64,000 bases of DNA from Neoscytalidium dimidiatum (lineage: Eukaryota; Ascomycota; Dothideomycetes; Botryosphaeriales; Botryosphaeriaceae), in NCBI GenBank assembly GCA_037367355.1, contig CM074702.1, forward strand, positions 1,612,001 through 1,676,000, given 5' to 3'. Under the pieces are notes generated by a model. The model was given only the letters and a program-made list of their open reading frames with translations. It was not told the origin of the DNA and ran no database searches. This document shows, piece by piece, positions 300 to 61,750 of the stretch. Made by a program: the position numbers and the translations under genes. Positions within the stretch are counted from its first letter, which is position 1. The number at the start of each line of letters is the position of its first letter.

Positions 300-1457
300 A
301 TGGCGCCGTCTGCAGTTGGGGCTCCCAGGATCAAACTGAAGGCTGCAGCTGTTCATGCCGCCCCGGTTTTCATGGACAAGAAAGCCACCGCTACTAAGGT
401 CGTGCGCATCATCGAGGATGCTGGCAGTCAAGGCATTAAGCTCCTTGCTTTCCCCGAGACCTTCATCCCGGGCTACCCTGTACGTGACATCGCCCGCGAC
501 CCGGATCGCCCTCCGCACTTGATATATGCGCCTCCAGCTCAGATCGACTGCTGACCGGTGCCGGCGCTTGTCAAGTAGTATTTCAGCGAGGCCTACCCTC
601 CACTGCACCAAGTCGGAGCTCTGGCAAAGTATGCCGAGGAGAGTGTTGTGTGCGATGAGAGCGATGAATGCATCCGCAGCATCCAGGCCGCATGCCGCTC
701 CGCCGGCGTGGCCATCAACCTCGGTGTCTCGGAGCGCATGCCCAACGGGTATTCCCTGTTCAACTCCCAGATTGTTATCGACGAGGATGGCTCCATCTTG
801 GGCGTCCACCGCAAGATCCAGCCAACCTATGTCGAGCGCTACGTCTGGGCCCAAGGCAGCGGCTGGAGCCTCAGGGTGTTCAAGCCAAAACTTGGCTATA
901 ACATTGGCGGTCTCTGTTGCTGGGAGAATACCTTCAACGGCGCTCGCCAAGCACTCATCAATCAGAACCAACACGTCCACGTGGGTGCCTGGCCCGCTTT
1001 GTCGACCATGCAGGGATTTCAGCCAGTTGCTGACTCGCAGATCGAAGCTCTGATGAAGACGCACGCTCTGACCGCCCAGGTGTTTGTGTTGAGTGCGGCG
1101 AATTACATCGATAAGCAGTGCCTCGATTGGATGGAGGAGAACCTCGGCAAGCAGGACCTGATCAAGGAGGGCGGAGGCTGGAGCGCCGTCATTCATCCCT
1201 TCTGCTCCTTCTTGGCTGGCCCGCACACCGGCTCCGAGGAAAAGCTTGTGACGGCCGAGCTGGACTTCAATGACCTGGGCCCGGTCAAGGTTTGGATTGA
1301 CGGCAACGGTCACTACAAGCGTCCCGAAATCCTCGACTTCAAGCTTGACACGAAGCCATTGTGGCCCAACGAGGGTGTTGTGCCCAGATTTCCGGAATCG
1401 TCTTTGAACGAAGCACCAAAAGTGGTTGATAAGGACGAGAAAGACCAACGGTCTTGA
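300..1457 (+). CDS. Nitrilase (carbon-nitrogen hydrolase family, aliphatic nitrilase type)
   Basis: Predicted 352-aa enzyme that hydrolyses a nitrile to the acid and ammonia. Exons are 300-479 and 579-1457. The 99-nt intron has a gtacgt donor and a tag acceptor, and joining them restores the GYP-YFSEAY junction in frame. The Glu-Lys-Cys triad of the nitrilase superfamily is visible: E53 in FPETFIPGYP, K139 in HRKIQPTYVER and C174 in GGLCCWEN. Length fits aliphatic nitrilases (about 350 aa). The GLCCWEN motif has Cys where many nitrilases and cyanide hydratases have Asn. A cyanide hydratase is less likely because the motifs around the active site look more nitrilase-like, but substrate cannot be read from sequence. 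The tail from about residue 325 is polar and charged. No signal peptide, so probably cytosolic. Confidence 0.88.
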
Positions 1458-57752: not shown

Positions 57753-59546
57753 TCATATCCAATCTTGCCCTCTTGCTTTACGACCGACTGCGGAGCTTCG
57801 GTACACACCCCTCTTTGCTGTTCTCCCGCCCATCCTCACGATTCCAGACAGATGCTGCACGCCGGCTAGCACGCCATCAATTACCTGCACATCATCGCCG
57901 ACGGCCTCTTCCACAGCCGCCTTCAGCGGTGTCATACCAGCACAGCCCAAAGTCAATACATCAGCACCTTGGGCTACCAGCTTCCTCCCAACATCGCACA
58001 TAATGGCCATGACCTCATCCTGGCTTTTCTCGTGGAGATCAAGGACGCCAAGGTTGCAGCTCCCAACGCCTGCACAGAACCCGTGAAAACCGTAGTGCCT
58101 GATCGCGTCCTCATGCATGACTCTGGACCGCTCACTTGTAGCAATCAGGCCGAATCGGCCACCGAGTGTCCTAGCAGCGAACAAAGACGCTTCCATTATA
58201 CCTATGACAGGTTGCCGCGGTAGCTCCTCACGCAGCATGCGTATCAAGGCATGATCTGAGTAACAAGCAACCAGAACTGCGTCGTGCGTTGCTGCAAGTG
58301 GAATGACAGCACGCGCAGCAGACGCCGCGGACATGATGTTATCGAAGTTGCCTTCTACGGCGGAAGGAGCAGGGCGCGGTGCAGTAAATCCGGTCAGCAC
58401 AACATCTGGAGGTAACTGGGTCTGGCACATTGCCACGCATGCATCGGTCATAGACTTGGTGCTGTTCGGGTTGACGAGGAGGACGCGGATTTTCTTGGTC
58501 GACGAAGGAGTGGCTTTCGAGCCTGTGCCGTTCGGCTCACCGGAGAGCTTTGGTGGCTCAATGACCCCCGTCTGCTCAGTGATGCGGCCGTAATGCTCAG
58601 TCCGCCGATGGCGCCCGAAATCGAAGGTCCTCTCTTTTCCTGGACGGCAGGCATCAAGGTCGCAGTCGGCAACCACGAGTTCGTCTTCCAGCGTGGAAGA
58701 CTCGGCCAGCAACTCGCCCTCCGGGCCGGTAATGCAGCTACCGCCTATCAAATCGTACTTGCCGTCGTCCAAGCCGCACCGTGCGGCACTGACGCTGAAG
58801 CACGCGTTTGTGTAGCTGTGGGCTTGCATGACGAGCTTGTGGTGGAACAAGGCCTTGTTTCTCGCCTCGTCAGGGTCCATGTTCTTGTCCGAGCCCCATA
58901 GATGCGGAGCAAACCCAGCGGTGTTGTAGCCGCAGTAGACTACCTCGACGCCTTGCAGGCCCAGCACTCGCCAGCTCTCCGCCCATCTCCTGTCGTTGCA
59001 AATCATCATGCCGAAGATGGGATCGCCACGCTCAGGAGGGGACTCGACCAGGTCGGGCACACGGAAAGCGTTGAACCCCAGGTCTCCGGGCTTGAAGTAG
59101 CGCTTCTCCAGCTGGTTCGTGGCCTCCGGGTCGGCAAAGGGCTCGAAGTCGCCGGGCAGATGGACCTTGCGATACTTGGACAAGATGGAGCCTGATTTGG
59201 CGTGGTAGTACACGCAGGCGTTGAAAGTCTCTCCCTCGTCGGTCTTCTCCGCGAACCCCACAGCAATGTCGATGCCAAGCTCCTTTGCCCGGTCAAACAG
59301 CGGTTTGGTCTGTTCCTGGGTGGTAATGTCGCCATGCTCGAAGAAGGAATCCAATTCGGCCGGGTCGTTGATCAAGTGGCGCGGGAAGAAGGTGGTAAAT
59401 GCGGTCTCGGGGAACAAGAGAGACTGCACTTTCTTGGACGCTGCAGACTCCAACAGTGCGAGCATGCGTCCGAGTGTCTTTGGCCGGGGATCGGCGTAAT
59501 GGGTTGCGCCCATCTGGGCTGCGCCGAGGCGGAGTACACGAGGCAT
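57753..59546 (-). CDS. N-carbamoyl-D-amino acid hydrolase fused to Asp/Glu/hydantoin racemase
   Basis: Single-exon gene for 597 aa with two catalytic domains. Residues 1-325 are a nitrilase-superfamily D-carbamoylase: E47 in FPETAFTTFFPR, K127 in KYRKVHLPG and C183 in MICNDRRWAESWRVLG. LEKRYFKPGDLGF and CGYNT also match bacterial DCase. It cleaves N-carbamoyl-D-amino acids to D-amino acid, CO2 and ammonia. After a linker (331-351), residues 352-597 are a DCG1/hydantoin-racemase domain. This starts at IRVLLVNPNSTKSMTDA and has the two catalytic cysteines, C428 in LVACYSDHAL and C535 in LTLGCAGMTPL. It would interconvert D and L forms of 5-substituted hydantoins. Bacteria keep these as separate proteins, as far as I know. 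The ATG at 59546 gives a domain start like bacterial DCase; the longer frame begins at TTG. No targeting signal. Divergent from the hydantoinase at 60075. Confidence 0.92.
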   Translation of the reverse strand: MPRVLRLGAAQMGATHYADPRPKTLGRMLALLESAASKKVQSLLFPETAFTTFFPRHLINDPAELDSFFEHGDITTQEQTKPLFDRAKELGIDIAVGFAEKTDEGETFNACVYYHAKSGSILSKYRKVHLPGDFEPFADPEATNQLEKRYFKPGDLGFNAFRVPDLVESPPERGDPIFGMMICNDRRWAESWRVLGLQGVEVVYCGYNTAGFAPHLWGSDKNMDPDEARNKALFHHKLVMQAHSYTNACFSVSAARCGLDDGKYDLIGGSCITGPEGELLAESSTLEDELVVADCDLDACRPGKERTFDFGRHRRTEHYGRITEQTGVIEPPKLSGEPNGTGSKATPSSTKKIRVLLVNPNSTKSMTDACVAMCQTQLPPDVVLTGFTAPRPAPSAVEGNFDNIMSAASAARAVIPLAATHDAVLVACYSDHALIRMLREELPRQPVIGIMEASLFAARTLGGRFGLIATSERSRVMHEDAIRHYGFHGFCAGVGSCNLGVLDLHEKSQDEVMAIMCDVGRKLVAQGADVLTLGCAGMTPLKAAVEEAVGDDVQVIDGVLAGVQHLSGIVRMGGRTAKRGVYRSSAVGRKARGQDWI

Positions 59547-60074
59547 GAGGGACGGCTGGTGTTGGCTGTGCAGGCCGAGGGAGATGACGCGGATGGCCAA
59601 TGTCAAGACATATACTTGAAGCTGTGTCTGACGCGATCACCCAATCGCTGTGCTACGGTCCGCGGAAGAGGGTGACCCGGTCGAAGACGAGGTTTGCGAT
59701 AGGCAGCGGTTCGGCGTCTTGGATGAAGCTATCGCGGCAATCCCGCCGGGCAGCGTCGATCGCAGGGTCTTCGTCCCGCGTCCAGCCAGATTCAACCCAG
59801 GAGCCCGGTCCATGATGGTCGATAAGGCGCGGGTGAAGGTCGCGGTTGGTAATGCCGGGAGCTTTCGGGCAACGCTACCCAAGGCCGAGAGATAGCGGCG
59901 CCTATCTGCCTTATCGCGACTCAGCTGCCCACTACTCTCTGCTGCCGCGACCACCATCATGACACACTCTGCAGCTTCTTGACTCCTTGGCTGGTGCTTC
60001 TCCGGCCCTCTTCCTGCCTATACTAACCATGGGCCCCCGCTTCCGCTCTGGGACGCCTCGCCCACCCGCCGAAA
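59547..60074. promoter_or_regulatory. Shared divergent promoter of the hydantoin genes with six GATA sites
   Basis: 528 bp between the two ATGs. Six HGATAR hexamers were found by eye: CGATAG at 59697-59702 (+), CGATAG at 59729-59734 (-), CGATAA at 59820-59825 (+), AGATAG at 59890-59895 (+), AGATAG at 59902-59907 (-) and CGATAA at 59911-59916 (-). HGATAR is the AreA/NIT2 (GATA factor) consensus. With equal base frequencies about 0.6 would be expected in a 220-bp stretch counting both strands, and six are present, four of them inside 100 bp. CCAAT occurs at 59597-59601 and 59641-59645. Binding is inferred. Confidence 0.6.
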
Positions 60075-61750
60075 ATGATCGCAAAGGTTGATGTTGACCT
60101 GATTGTCCAAAATGCCACTGTGGTGAGCCTTGCTGAATTCACTCTGCCGTATGAACCGAGATCCTGACGCCCCAGCAGGTCACTGCTTCAGATGTTCTGC
60201 CAAAACAGGACATCGCCGTTCGTGACTCCAAGATCCTGTTTCTCGGCCAAAACCTGACCTCTCTGTTCTCCGCTGCCCAAGTCATCGACGCCCAGGGTGC
60301 TTTCGTGACCCCAGGAGGTGTTGATTCGCATGTCCATCTTCATCAGGACAATTCTCCCACAGGCGACAACTTCGAGACCGGGACTCGGTCAGCCATTGCC
60401 GGCGGCACCACCACCATCTTGGCCTTCGCCTCGCAAACCCGCAAGGATGACTCCCTCTACCCCGTTGTCGAAGAGTACCACAACAGATCACGTGGCCAAT
60501 CATATTGCGACTACGGCTTCCACTTGATTCTAACCAAGCCCACTAAGCAGATTGTTGATGAAGAGCTTCCTGTCCTCGTCGGCGATGGCATCACCTCGGT
60601 CAAAATCTACATGACCTATGAGCCTTTGAAGCTCAGGGATCTGGAAATCCTCGATATCATGATGAGAACCAGAGCTCTCGGCATGACGACTATGGTTCAT
60701 GCCGAGAACAGTGATATGATCACCTGGATCACCGACAGACTCGCGGAGCAAAAGCTCACTGCCCCTTATTACCACGCCATTAGTCGTCCGTCTATTGCCG
60801 AGGACGAGGCCACCTACCGTGTCATTGCCCTATCTGAACTCATCGACATTCCTATCCTGTTAGTCCACGTGTCTAGCTTGAAGGCTGCGTCTCACATCCG
60901 CGCAGCGCAAACGAGACTCCTTCCAGTCCACGGCGAAACGTGCCCGCATTACCTCTACCTCACATCCGACGCCCTGAAGTCGCACGACGACGATCCTTTC
61001 TCCGGTGCGAAGCACATCTGTAGCCCGCCCCTTCGCGCGGACCGCATGGACCTGGACGCCATGTGGGCTGGCCTGGTCAATGGCACCTTTACCACCTTCT
61101 CCTCGGATCACGCCCCCTCTAAATACGACCACCCCTGTGGCAAGAAGCTCGGTCTCTCCGCCGACGGCTCCATGCACTACGCCAAAGTTCCTAACGGCCT
61201 CCCCGGCCTCGAGACCCGCATGCCGACCCTCTTCGAAGGTGGCGTGCTGACCGGCCGCATCACGCCGCAGAAGTTCGTCGAGCTGACGGCTTCCAACCCG
61301 GCCAAGCTGTACGGCATGGGCGACACGAAAGGCACCATCGCTCCCGGCTTCGACGCCGATCTGGTCATCTGGTACCCCACCCCGTCTCAAATCCCGGCAG
61401 GCTCGGCGGCTGGCGGCGCGGGCGCCGTCGAAGGCAGCGCCAACCCCGCCGCCGCGACGCCCATGCAGCCATTTGCCCTGAAGAACGAGATGCTGCACCA
61501 CGACATCGACTACACCCCGTTCGAGGGCATGACGTTCAACAACTGGCCGCGCTACACGATCCTGCGCGGCAAGGTCGTCTGGGACCGCGACAACGGCGGC
61601 GTCGTCGGCGAGATGGGATACGGCCAGTTCTTGAAGCGCGGCAAGAGCACGCTGAGCAAGCCGCGGGACAAGTGGGTGAACGAGTTCAGACCCGGTGGGA
61701 AGGTAAGGACGGCCATGGAGGGAGTACGGACGGCGCCGGCATTGGACTAG
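60075..61750 (+). CDS. Hydantoinase/dihydropyrimidinase
   Basis: 539 aa in two exons, 60075-60122 (MIAKVDVDLIVQNATV) and 60179-61750, with a 56-nt intron (gtgagc..gcag). Opens cyclic ureides (5-substituted hydantoins or dihydropyrimidines) to N-carbamoyl acids. The binuclear metal site of the amidohydrolase fold is complete: H67 and H69 in DSHVHLH, carbamylated K158 in ITSVKIYMTY, H190 in MVHAEN, H246 in VHVSS and D326 in SSDHAPS. Product stereochemistry cannot be read, but the neighbouring D-carbamoylase makes a D-hydantoinase role likely. A fungal insertion of about 35 Ala/Gly residues (near 400-430) separates the last barrel strand from the MLHHDIDYTPFEGM segment; bacterial enzymes run straight through. 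No targeting signal. Pyrimidine catabolism alone is the alternative role. Confidence 0.92.

Follow-up and report, generated by a model that had tools for sequence, protein, structure and literature searches.

Bacterial hydantoin-utilisation clusters consist of genes for a hydantoin racemase, a D-hydantoinase and a D-carbamoylase, and the conversion of hydantoins to D-amino acids by these three bacterial enzymes is an industrial route. For example, in the bacterial loci L028, L030 and L045 (carbamoylases 42–49% identical to the fungal one) each of the three enzymes has its own gene a short distance from the others, with the hydantoinase gene on the same strand in L028 and L030 and convergent in L045. 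The same three enzyme types are encoded in a window of 64,000 nucleotides (the whole stretch of DNA that was analysed) from the fungus Neoscytalidium dimidiatum, but here the hydantoinase gene is divergent and the other two activities belong to one fused gene. The features of this locus are as follows.

57753..59546, minus strand: CDS of a fused D-carbamoylase-like / Asp-Glu-hydantoin racemase protein; a single open frame with both Pfam domains
58641..59522, minus strand: CN_hydrolase domain of the N-carbamoyl-D-amino-acid hydrolase type, with E47-K127-C183
58485..58640, minus strand: interdomain linker of the fusion, of varying length among fungi in the alignment
57852..58484, minus strand: Asp/Glu/hydantoin racemase domain, with C428 and C535
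59547..60074, no strand: shared divergent promoter, 528 bp between the start codons, with six candidate HGATAR sites
60075..60122, plus strand: hydantoinase exon 1, 16 codons from the ATG at 60075, placed by splice inspection; in-frame stop upstream at 60024
60123..60178, plus strand: predicted 56-bp hydantoinase intron (GTGAGC...CAG, with a CTGAC branch-like motif)
60179..61750, plus strand: hydantoinase/dihydropyrimidinase exon 2, stop at 61750; TIGR02033 match and active-site residues

The sequence-only reading had recognised three enzymes in these two divergent genes, and the profile scores confirm them. The fusion product (597 aa, with no intron seen in its single frame and a start, MPR, that agrees with its homologues in the alignment) scores 142 bits with CN_hydrolase and 183.6 bits with Asp_Glu_race, both far over the cut-off. 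The hydantoinase exceeds the cut-off of the D-hydantoinase/dihydropyrimidinase model TIGR02033 (400.5 versus 393.25 bits) and stays below that of the PRK13404 dihydropyrimidinase subfamily (513.8 versus 647 bits); these hydantoinase profile scores were taken on the 481-aa frame 60305–61750. The full spliced protein has 539 aa, and its alignments with the four best listed relatives cover 100% of it. The catalytic residues are intact as that reading had numbered them: E47, K127, C183, C428 and C535 (M = 1) are invariant in 14 out of 14 aligned fungal fusions, and the binuclear metal ligands and carboxylated lysine of the 539-aa hydantoinase (H67, H69, K158, H190, H246 and D326) are all present. 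The structure model of the fusion, built from 14 sequences, is only moderate (mean pLDDT 67.8, pTM 0.51), with pLDDT under 50 for linker residues 303–350.

As in a hydantoin-utilisation locus, racemase, hydantoinase and carbamoylase are encoded together here, and are kept so in relatives. Judging from sequence, we give a probability of roughly 0.6 to the reading that this is a fungal hydantoin-utilisation module, scavenging nitrogen from 5-substituted hydantoins with D-amino acids as products; its substrate, stereochemistry and regulation are what we infer. A 5-monosubstituted hydantoin would be racemised by the racemase domain, its D form would be opened by the hydantoinase to the N-carbamoyl-D-amino acid, and the carbamoylase domain would convert the latter to the D-amino acid, ammonia and CO2; ordinary D-amino-acid oxidation would follow. 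One point against this reading is that the nearest frames scanned beside the gene pair include neither a transporter nor a D-amino-acid oxidase. Such a module would show that fungi have dedicated means to use hydantoins or make D-amino acids, and a widely distributed family of fungal genes, now often labelled just 'carbon-nitrogen hydrolase', would gain a function. For biocatalysis, a natural fusion of two of the three enzymes that fungi have conserved would be a new design, and it would become directly testable which natural hydantoins are encountered by fungi.

The shared promoter contains HGATAR motifs, of the GATA-factor type, at 59697, 59729, 59820, 59890, 59902 and 59911. The mean in 1000 dinucleotide shuffles is 0.93 sites, and six were reached in none of them; the promoter holds the only such motif cluster, and the densest, within the window.

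The gene pair recurs in other fungi. There are 904 homologues of the fusion at E <= 0.001, and both domains are found in 120 out of 120 among the matches listed, so the fusion match is not due to chance; at least 163 distinct proteins among the matches listed have both domains, and many fungal genera have kept the fusion. A search for divergent neighbours had been proposed along with the sequence-only reading: fusion and hydantoinase are on one contig or have consecutive locus tags in 22 out of 22 comparable named fungi, where the count is of species with a hydantoinase of the close clade and includes both Ascomycota and Basidiomycota. Where the best listed hydantoinase is more distant, the two genes are unlinked (three out of three such species). 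Zymoseptoria tritici, Aspergillus niger, A. wentii, Friedmanniomyces endolithicus and further Meristemomyces strains were set aside, as the strains differ between the lists. Both genes are also present on two further contigs (12,564 and 4,579 bases); picked out by matching lengths, these come without a denominator and are outside the 22. Chance neighbourhood was rejected: 0.66 cases are expected, assuming 35-Mb genomes, versus 21 named species with a shared contig. Rejected as well was a pair unique to the N. dimidiatum assembly, which would have counted against the earlier reading. That reading also knew of no described eukaryotic locus of this layout. No paper on a fungal carbamoylase–racemase fusion or on the divergent locus stood out among the listed open-licence papers (in the main text of PMC5169069 'fusion' occurs once, meaning cells, and 'fused' never), but the layout itself is common in deposited fungal genomes.

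The carbamoylase domain shares its fold, the Glu-Lys-Cys triad and the NDRR and YNT motifs with the D-carbamoylases 1fo6, 1erz and 6lei, and differs from them in Gln145, which stands for His144, and in the attached racemase domain. The catalytic triad Glu47-Lys127-Cys172 of D-carbamoylase corresponds to E47, K127 and C183 in 19 out of 19 fungal rows, and bacterial Asn173, Arg175, Arg176 and Asn197 correspond to N184, R186, R187 and N208, again in all 19. The substrate-recognition residues that an excerpt of PMC3546935 lists for D-carbamoylase are His129, His144, Arg175, Arg176 and His215. H129, R186 and R187 (equivalent to His129, Arg175 and Arg176) are present in all 19 fungal rows and H235 (equivalent to His215) in 17, the N. 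dimidiatum fusion among them, but His144 is replaced by Gln in all 19. Outside the nearest group, 36 of the 40 bacterial rows have His at this position. Eight of the 11 nearest bacterial rows (L028–L035) were found by the pattern QLEKRYF, which itself requires Gln, so Gln in these rows proves nothing; free of this filter, Gln is found in L020 and L064, plus L046 and L047 (genes already represented by L029 and L031, fetched again by whole-protein search), and the fungal rows were selected independently of the pattern. Because of the replacement in all fungal rows, we file the domain as D-carbamoylase-like and not as a proven member. The sequence-only reading expected an active system from its intact catalytic residues, which overstates the case: since His144 is Gln in every aligned fungal relative, these residues do not settle specificity, and the change counts against the hydantoin reading.

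Instead of a broad route for racemic hydantoins, the two genes might be dedicated to the breakdown of a single natural hydantoin, and the racemase may then epimerise the open-chain intermediate or the product. We consider this distinctly unlikely: the sequence names no substrate, and D-carbamoylases are usually broad in substrate. One unusual pocket residue common to 19 out of 19 fungal carbamoylase rows, together with retention of the fusion in many genera, nevertheless suggests a shared natural substrate. A further point in favour of this reading comes from PMC5169069, whose authors caution about sampling: plant pathogens figure in 13 out of 15 published transfers of the racemase family into fungi.

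The racemase domain has the family fold and the two catalytic cysteines of allantoin/hydantoin racemases, and its best solved relatives are allantoin racemases, which counts against the hydantoin reading. Like KpAllR, for which an excerpt of PMC12661438 gives a pocket fingerprint of Asn12, Met17, Thr/Ser118 and Thr119, it conserves the first two positions (invariant Asn361 and Met366, by a hand-derived numbering offset); by the same offset, positions 118 and 119 are Ala469 and Thr470 in N. dimidiatum, and both vary among relatives. It differs from KpAllR in having Ala469 for Thr118, in its sequence (27–29% identity) and in being fused behind a carbamoylase. A fungal enzyme of the same Pfam family belongs to secondary metabolism, where its substrate is a tricyclic peptide derivative; its hydrophobic pocket residues differ from those seen here. 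The locus might also be a ureide branch: the racemase would act on allantoin, the amidohydrolase would open allantoin or a similar ring, and decarbamoylation of ureidoglycolate or another carbamoyl acid would fall to the nitrilase-fold domain. This is unlikely: the hydantoinase frame scores 186.4 bits with the allantoinase model versus 400.5 with the D-hydantoinase model, the carbamoylase retains the remaining residues listed for D-carbamoylases, and an allantoinase-like gene and an allantoicase are present elsewhere in the same genome.

The best solved relative of the hydantoinase is the yeast dihydropyrimidinase 2fty (Lachancea kluyveri PYD2), also a cyclic amidohydrolase on the same fungal side of the tree; the N. 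dimidiatum protein differs in having SDHA for SDHC at the catalytic Asp, and its gene is linked to the fusion gene and not to a beta-alanine synthase. The linked fungal hydantoinases form one clade (SH-aLRT 96–98), which groups with fungal dihydropyrimidinases, L. kluyveri PYD2 included, in three trees (SH-aLRT 88, 100 and 99; 41 bacterial rows, 33 of them distinct, for the value of 100, and 28, two of them solved D-hydantoinases, for 99). Rows L029, L050, L064, L065 and L074 were removed for the first tree and L022, L041 and L068 for the other two, and twelve near-duplicates and some fetched loci were also dropped for the third. Two uracil-type rows are long-branched, and the grouping is not beyond doubt. 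These affinities, and the activity of relatives on both ring types, dihydropyrimidines included, which is described as frequent in an excerpt of PMC3546935, speak for a pyrimidine or substituted-dihydropyrimidine route, where the hydantoinase would be mainly a dihydropyrimidinase, the carbamoylase would act on N-carbamoyl-beta-amino acids and the racemase would be a side reaction. Such a route is very unlikely: uracil breakdown has no place for a racemase, and by its matches the carbamoylase domain falls with the D-carbamoylases (1fo6, E 7e-71), at a great distance from the beta-ureidopropionase 2vhh (E 2e-5). Elsewhere in the genome a second dihydropyrimidinase, 45–49% identical over its main pieces, adjoins an M20 amidase for which the L. 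kluyveri beta-alanine synthase is the closest match (the C37/C25 pair); this PYD2/PYD3-type pairing is absent at the fusion locus. Because uracil- and allantoin-type genes are separate, the fusion locus is not the obvious uracil or allantoin route.

The ancestry of the proposed hydantoin module appears mixed. In the carbamoylase tree a branch with SH-aLRT 100 sets off the fungal domains, whose neighbours are proteobacterial, and this domain looks bacterial in origin; the racemase domain presumably is too. A single bacterial operon may have supplied both domains. In the racemase trees (rows L022, L037, L038 and L042 removed), though, the fungi are apart from carbamoylase-adjacent racemases, a placement that is unsure, as long branches meet. 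A single fusion event in fungi would explain the data, given the separate neighbouring genes of some bacteria. Transfer of the whole three-enzyme locus from bacteria as one piece is not favoured, as the hydantoinases stay with fungal dihydropyrimidinases. We see about an even chance that fungi of at least two phyla have a conserved, nitrogen-regulated two-gene pathway from both enantiomers of 5-substituted hydantoins to D-amino acids, with the fusion made from bacterial genes, the hydantoinase from a fungal dihydropyrimidinase duplicate and a natural hydantoin substrate reflected in the His-to-Gln change. If true, a bacterial-type pathway has been re-assembled from genes of mixed ancestry, undescribed as far as searched.

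No match was found in the viral contigs searched, and no fused bacterial carbamoylase–racemase in 907 sampled genomes (274 + 337 + 296, from two classes and one phylum; the best three or four candidates scored per genome, among matches listed to about E 6.5e-8 in one set and at E <= 1e-40 and E <= 1e-30 in the others). In 51 out of 51 fetched bacterial carbamoylase loci the frame stops 0–33 codons past the match (within 13 codons in 50). Also against the hydantoin reading, some bacterial relatives are near genes annotated as PuuE or polysaccharide deacetylase. Carbamoylase and racemase genes are side by side in some of the sampled genomes: in two from the class of Gluconobacter (G505 and G474), the racemase comes after the carbamoylase in the same reading frame, separated from it by one stop codon.

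The fusion gene (59546..57753, minus strand; 597 a.a.), which joins a D-carbamoylase-like CN_hydrolase domain to an Asp/Glu/hydantoin racemase domain, has a domain layout that is conserved among fungi. Among 5.8 billion proteins searched, 904 are homologous to it (E ≤ 0.001); all 120 matches listed of these 904 contain both domains, and all named organisms among the 120 are fungi. A second search, with an Aspergillus fusion as query, again found both domains in 120 out of the 120 matches listed (of 764). Across both lists (120 listed each, of 904 and 764) there are 163 distinct two-domain proteins, with labels such as 'carbon-nitrogen hydrolase', 'N-carbamoyl-D-amino acid hydrolase' and 'hypothetical protein'. 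Among the named carriers are Dothideomycetes, Sordariomycetes and Eurotiomycetes, as well as two Basidiomycota (Gloeophyllum trabeum and Neolentinus lepideus, among the matches listed).

The hydantoinase gene (60075..61750, plus strand; 539 a.a.) diverges from the fusion gene. Its search gave 7819 matches, the best 120 of which were compared with the fusion lists. Two genes of one species were considered linked if found on contigs of equal size (taken as shared) or if their locus tags were consecutive; the sample comprised named species in both kinds of list, with a hydantoinase at least 63% identical to that of the window and strains not visibly different. Among the matches listed, the genes are linked in all 22 comparable species, so the gene pair described by the sequence-only reading recurs and is not confined to one assembly. 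Linkage is by locus tags in one species (Diplodia seriata, 008934/008935) and by a shared contig in 21, where adjacency is proven only for small contigs and tag pairs; chance alone would give 0.66 shared contigs in these 21 species (assuming a genome size of 35 Mb). Three of the 21 also have consecutive tags:

Locus tags of the two genes in species that also have a shared contig
Colletotrichum jinshuiense: 001426/001427
Aspergillus terreus: 010636/010637
A. nanangensis: 005703/005704

Both genes are also found on two further contigs of 12,564 and 4,579 bases, identified via the match itself. They are on different contigs in Meristemomyces (LTR85), Saxophila and Delphinella (0 out of 3 linked), whose best listed hydantoinases are only 57–58% identical to the window's. 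Of the 24 linked cases (22 species and the two further contigs), 18 were placed in hydantoinase trees, where they form one clade with the window copy (SH-aLRT 96–98; a further tree has fewer rows); the clade excludes the copies of the three unlinked genera and includes ten rows outside the linkage comparison. In Phyllosticta citricarpa (P0002/P0142), identity to the window copy is 87% for the fusion and only 67% for the hydantoinase on the equal-size contig, which has a longer branch; in this species the two genes seem to evolve at different rates.

Trees of each domain against bacterial and fungal homologues, as the earlier reading had proposed, suggest different origins. A branch with SH-aLRT 100 sets the fungal carbamoylase domains apart, with proteobacterial ones as neighbours; the fungal racemase domains are also split off by one branch (98/99), with an unsure attachment point. 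In three trees (SH-aLRT 88, 100 and 99; two rows have long branches) the hydantoinases fall together with fungal dihydropyrimidinases, among them yeast PYD2 and this genome's second copy, and therefore the hydantoinase seems to be a fungal paralogue rather than to have arrived in one transfer with the fused domains. Bacteria-to-fungi transfer of Asp/Glu/hydantoin racemases has been published, with fungal acceptors in 15 of 17 events (PMC5169069).

No carbamoylase–racemase fusion was seen among the best candidates of 907 bacterial genomes (274 + 337 + 296), and in all 51 bacterial loci fetched the carbamoylase frame stops within 33 codons after the match. In two genomes (G505 and G474) the racemase continues the carbamoylase frame after just one stop codon, and in two others (G100 and G221) the genes are adjacent. 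A hydantoinase converges on the carbamoylase–racemase tandem at L045/L110 (G505) and L111 (G402), and all three genes lie inside 5 kb in Bordetella (L028) and Achromobacter (L030). The kind of pathway is known from bacteria, and this is a new variant through its fused enzyme, mixed ancestry and fungal setting; we found no description of the fungal locus in the open-licence literature searched, which is not proof of absence.

A nitrogen-scavenging hydantoin pathway yielding a D-amino acid would best explain these genes (probability about 0.6). D-carbamoylases recognize their substrate through His129, His144, Arg175, Arg176 and His215 (PMC3546935). The earlier claim of an active system from hydantoin to D-amino acid held in part: the window fusion keeps all these positions except His144, which is replaced by Gln145; 19 out of 19 fungal rows have Gln at this position (the 40 bacterial rows beyond the nearest group: His 36, Asn 2, Gln 1, gap 1), a result that counts against a simple reading. 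Gln is found in all 11 nearest bacterial rows, a biased sample in which eight were retrieved by a pattern demanding it; it also occurs in L020, L064, L046 and L047, which were obtained independently of this pattern. The Gln forms of L028 and L030 adjoin hydantoinase and racemase genes, so the change by itself is no argument against hydantoins. It does hint at a particular substrate, and a dedicated natural hydantoin is an improbable alternative to general scavenging. Gln-type carbamoylase-like proteins also form a subgroup in Proteobacteria (L028–L035, L020, L064; mostly found by a Gln-containing pattern), some adjoining hydantoinase and racemase genes. Of the four pocket residues in the allantoin-hydantoin racemase fingerprint (PMC12661438), two never vary in the aligned racemase domains and the window copy also retains a third.

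A pyrimidine-type route, which the kinship with dihydropyrimidinases might recall, is the least likely alternative. Around the catalytic aspartate the window hydantoinase reads SDHA, a motif shared by 12 of the 13 carbamoylase-adjoining bacterial hydantoinases checked, whereas the two uracil-type copies have SDHC. Ureide metabolism is unlikely, if less so. Among the closest plasmid-borne bacterial hydantoinases is one of Klebsiella michiganensis (L113, 46843–54249), whose neighbours are annotated as allantoinase PuuE, ureidoglycolate lyase and cytosine permease, which suggests that this subfamily may work in ureide clusters too. Related genes lie elsewhere in the Neoscytalidium genome:

C37:27007-36164 and C25:13000-22180, opposite orientation, 9.2 kb each: dihydropyrimidinase/beta-alanine synthase stretch
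C11:1606475-1607879: allantoinase-like gene, with a 203-a.a. piece that fits TIGR03178 best (183 bits, under the whole-protein cut-off of 358)
C11:2241866-2242819: allantoicase

The second dihydropyrimidinase (45–49% identity to the window copy across its main pieces) adjoins a 451-a.a. M20 amidase that, among solved structures, comes closest to Lachancea kluyveri beta-alanine synthase (1r3n/1r43, E about 1e-92); they are the expected uracil pair. C37 and C25 are 99.3% identical across 9.2 kb and may be duplicate or unpolished contigs, as their frame breaks differ. With these separate genes, there is no obvious need for the window pair in uracil or allantoin use, and substrate overlap is possible.

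Nitrogen scavenging also fits the shared promoter. Nitrogen GATA factors of the AreA/NIT2 type bind the consensus HGATAR, and six such sites, on both strands, are found in the 528 bp between the start codons (mean 0.93, and none with six, in 1000 dinucleotide-preserving shuffles; the motif was picked after the gene content was known). At least six occur in 26 of 5290 positions of a sliding 528-bp frame across the 64-kb window, all from this single cluster.

Outside the fusion, no place with both domains was found in the genome (the candidate lists are lower bounds). A CN_hydrolase (PF00795) gene unrelated to the fusion lies at the opposite window end (339-1457, plus strand), with in-frame stops that may mark introns, and at C6:409194-410091 there is a stand-alone Asp/Glu/hydantoin racemase gene with this one domain, probably interrupted by an intron, which shares about 35% identity with the racemase domain of the fusion.
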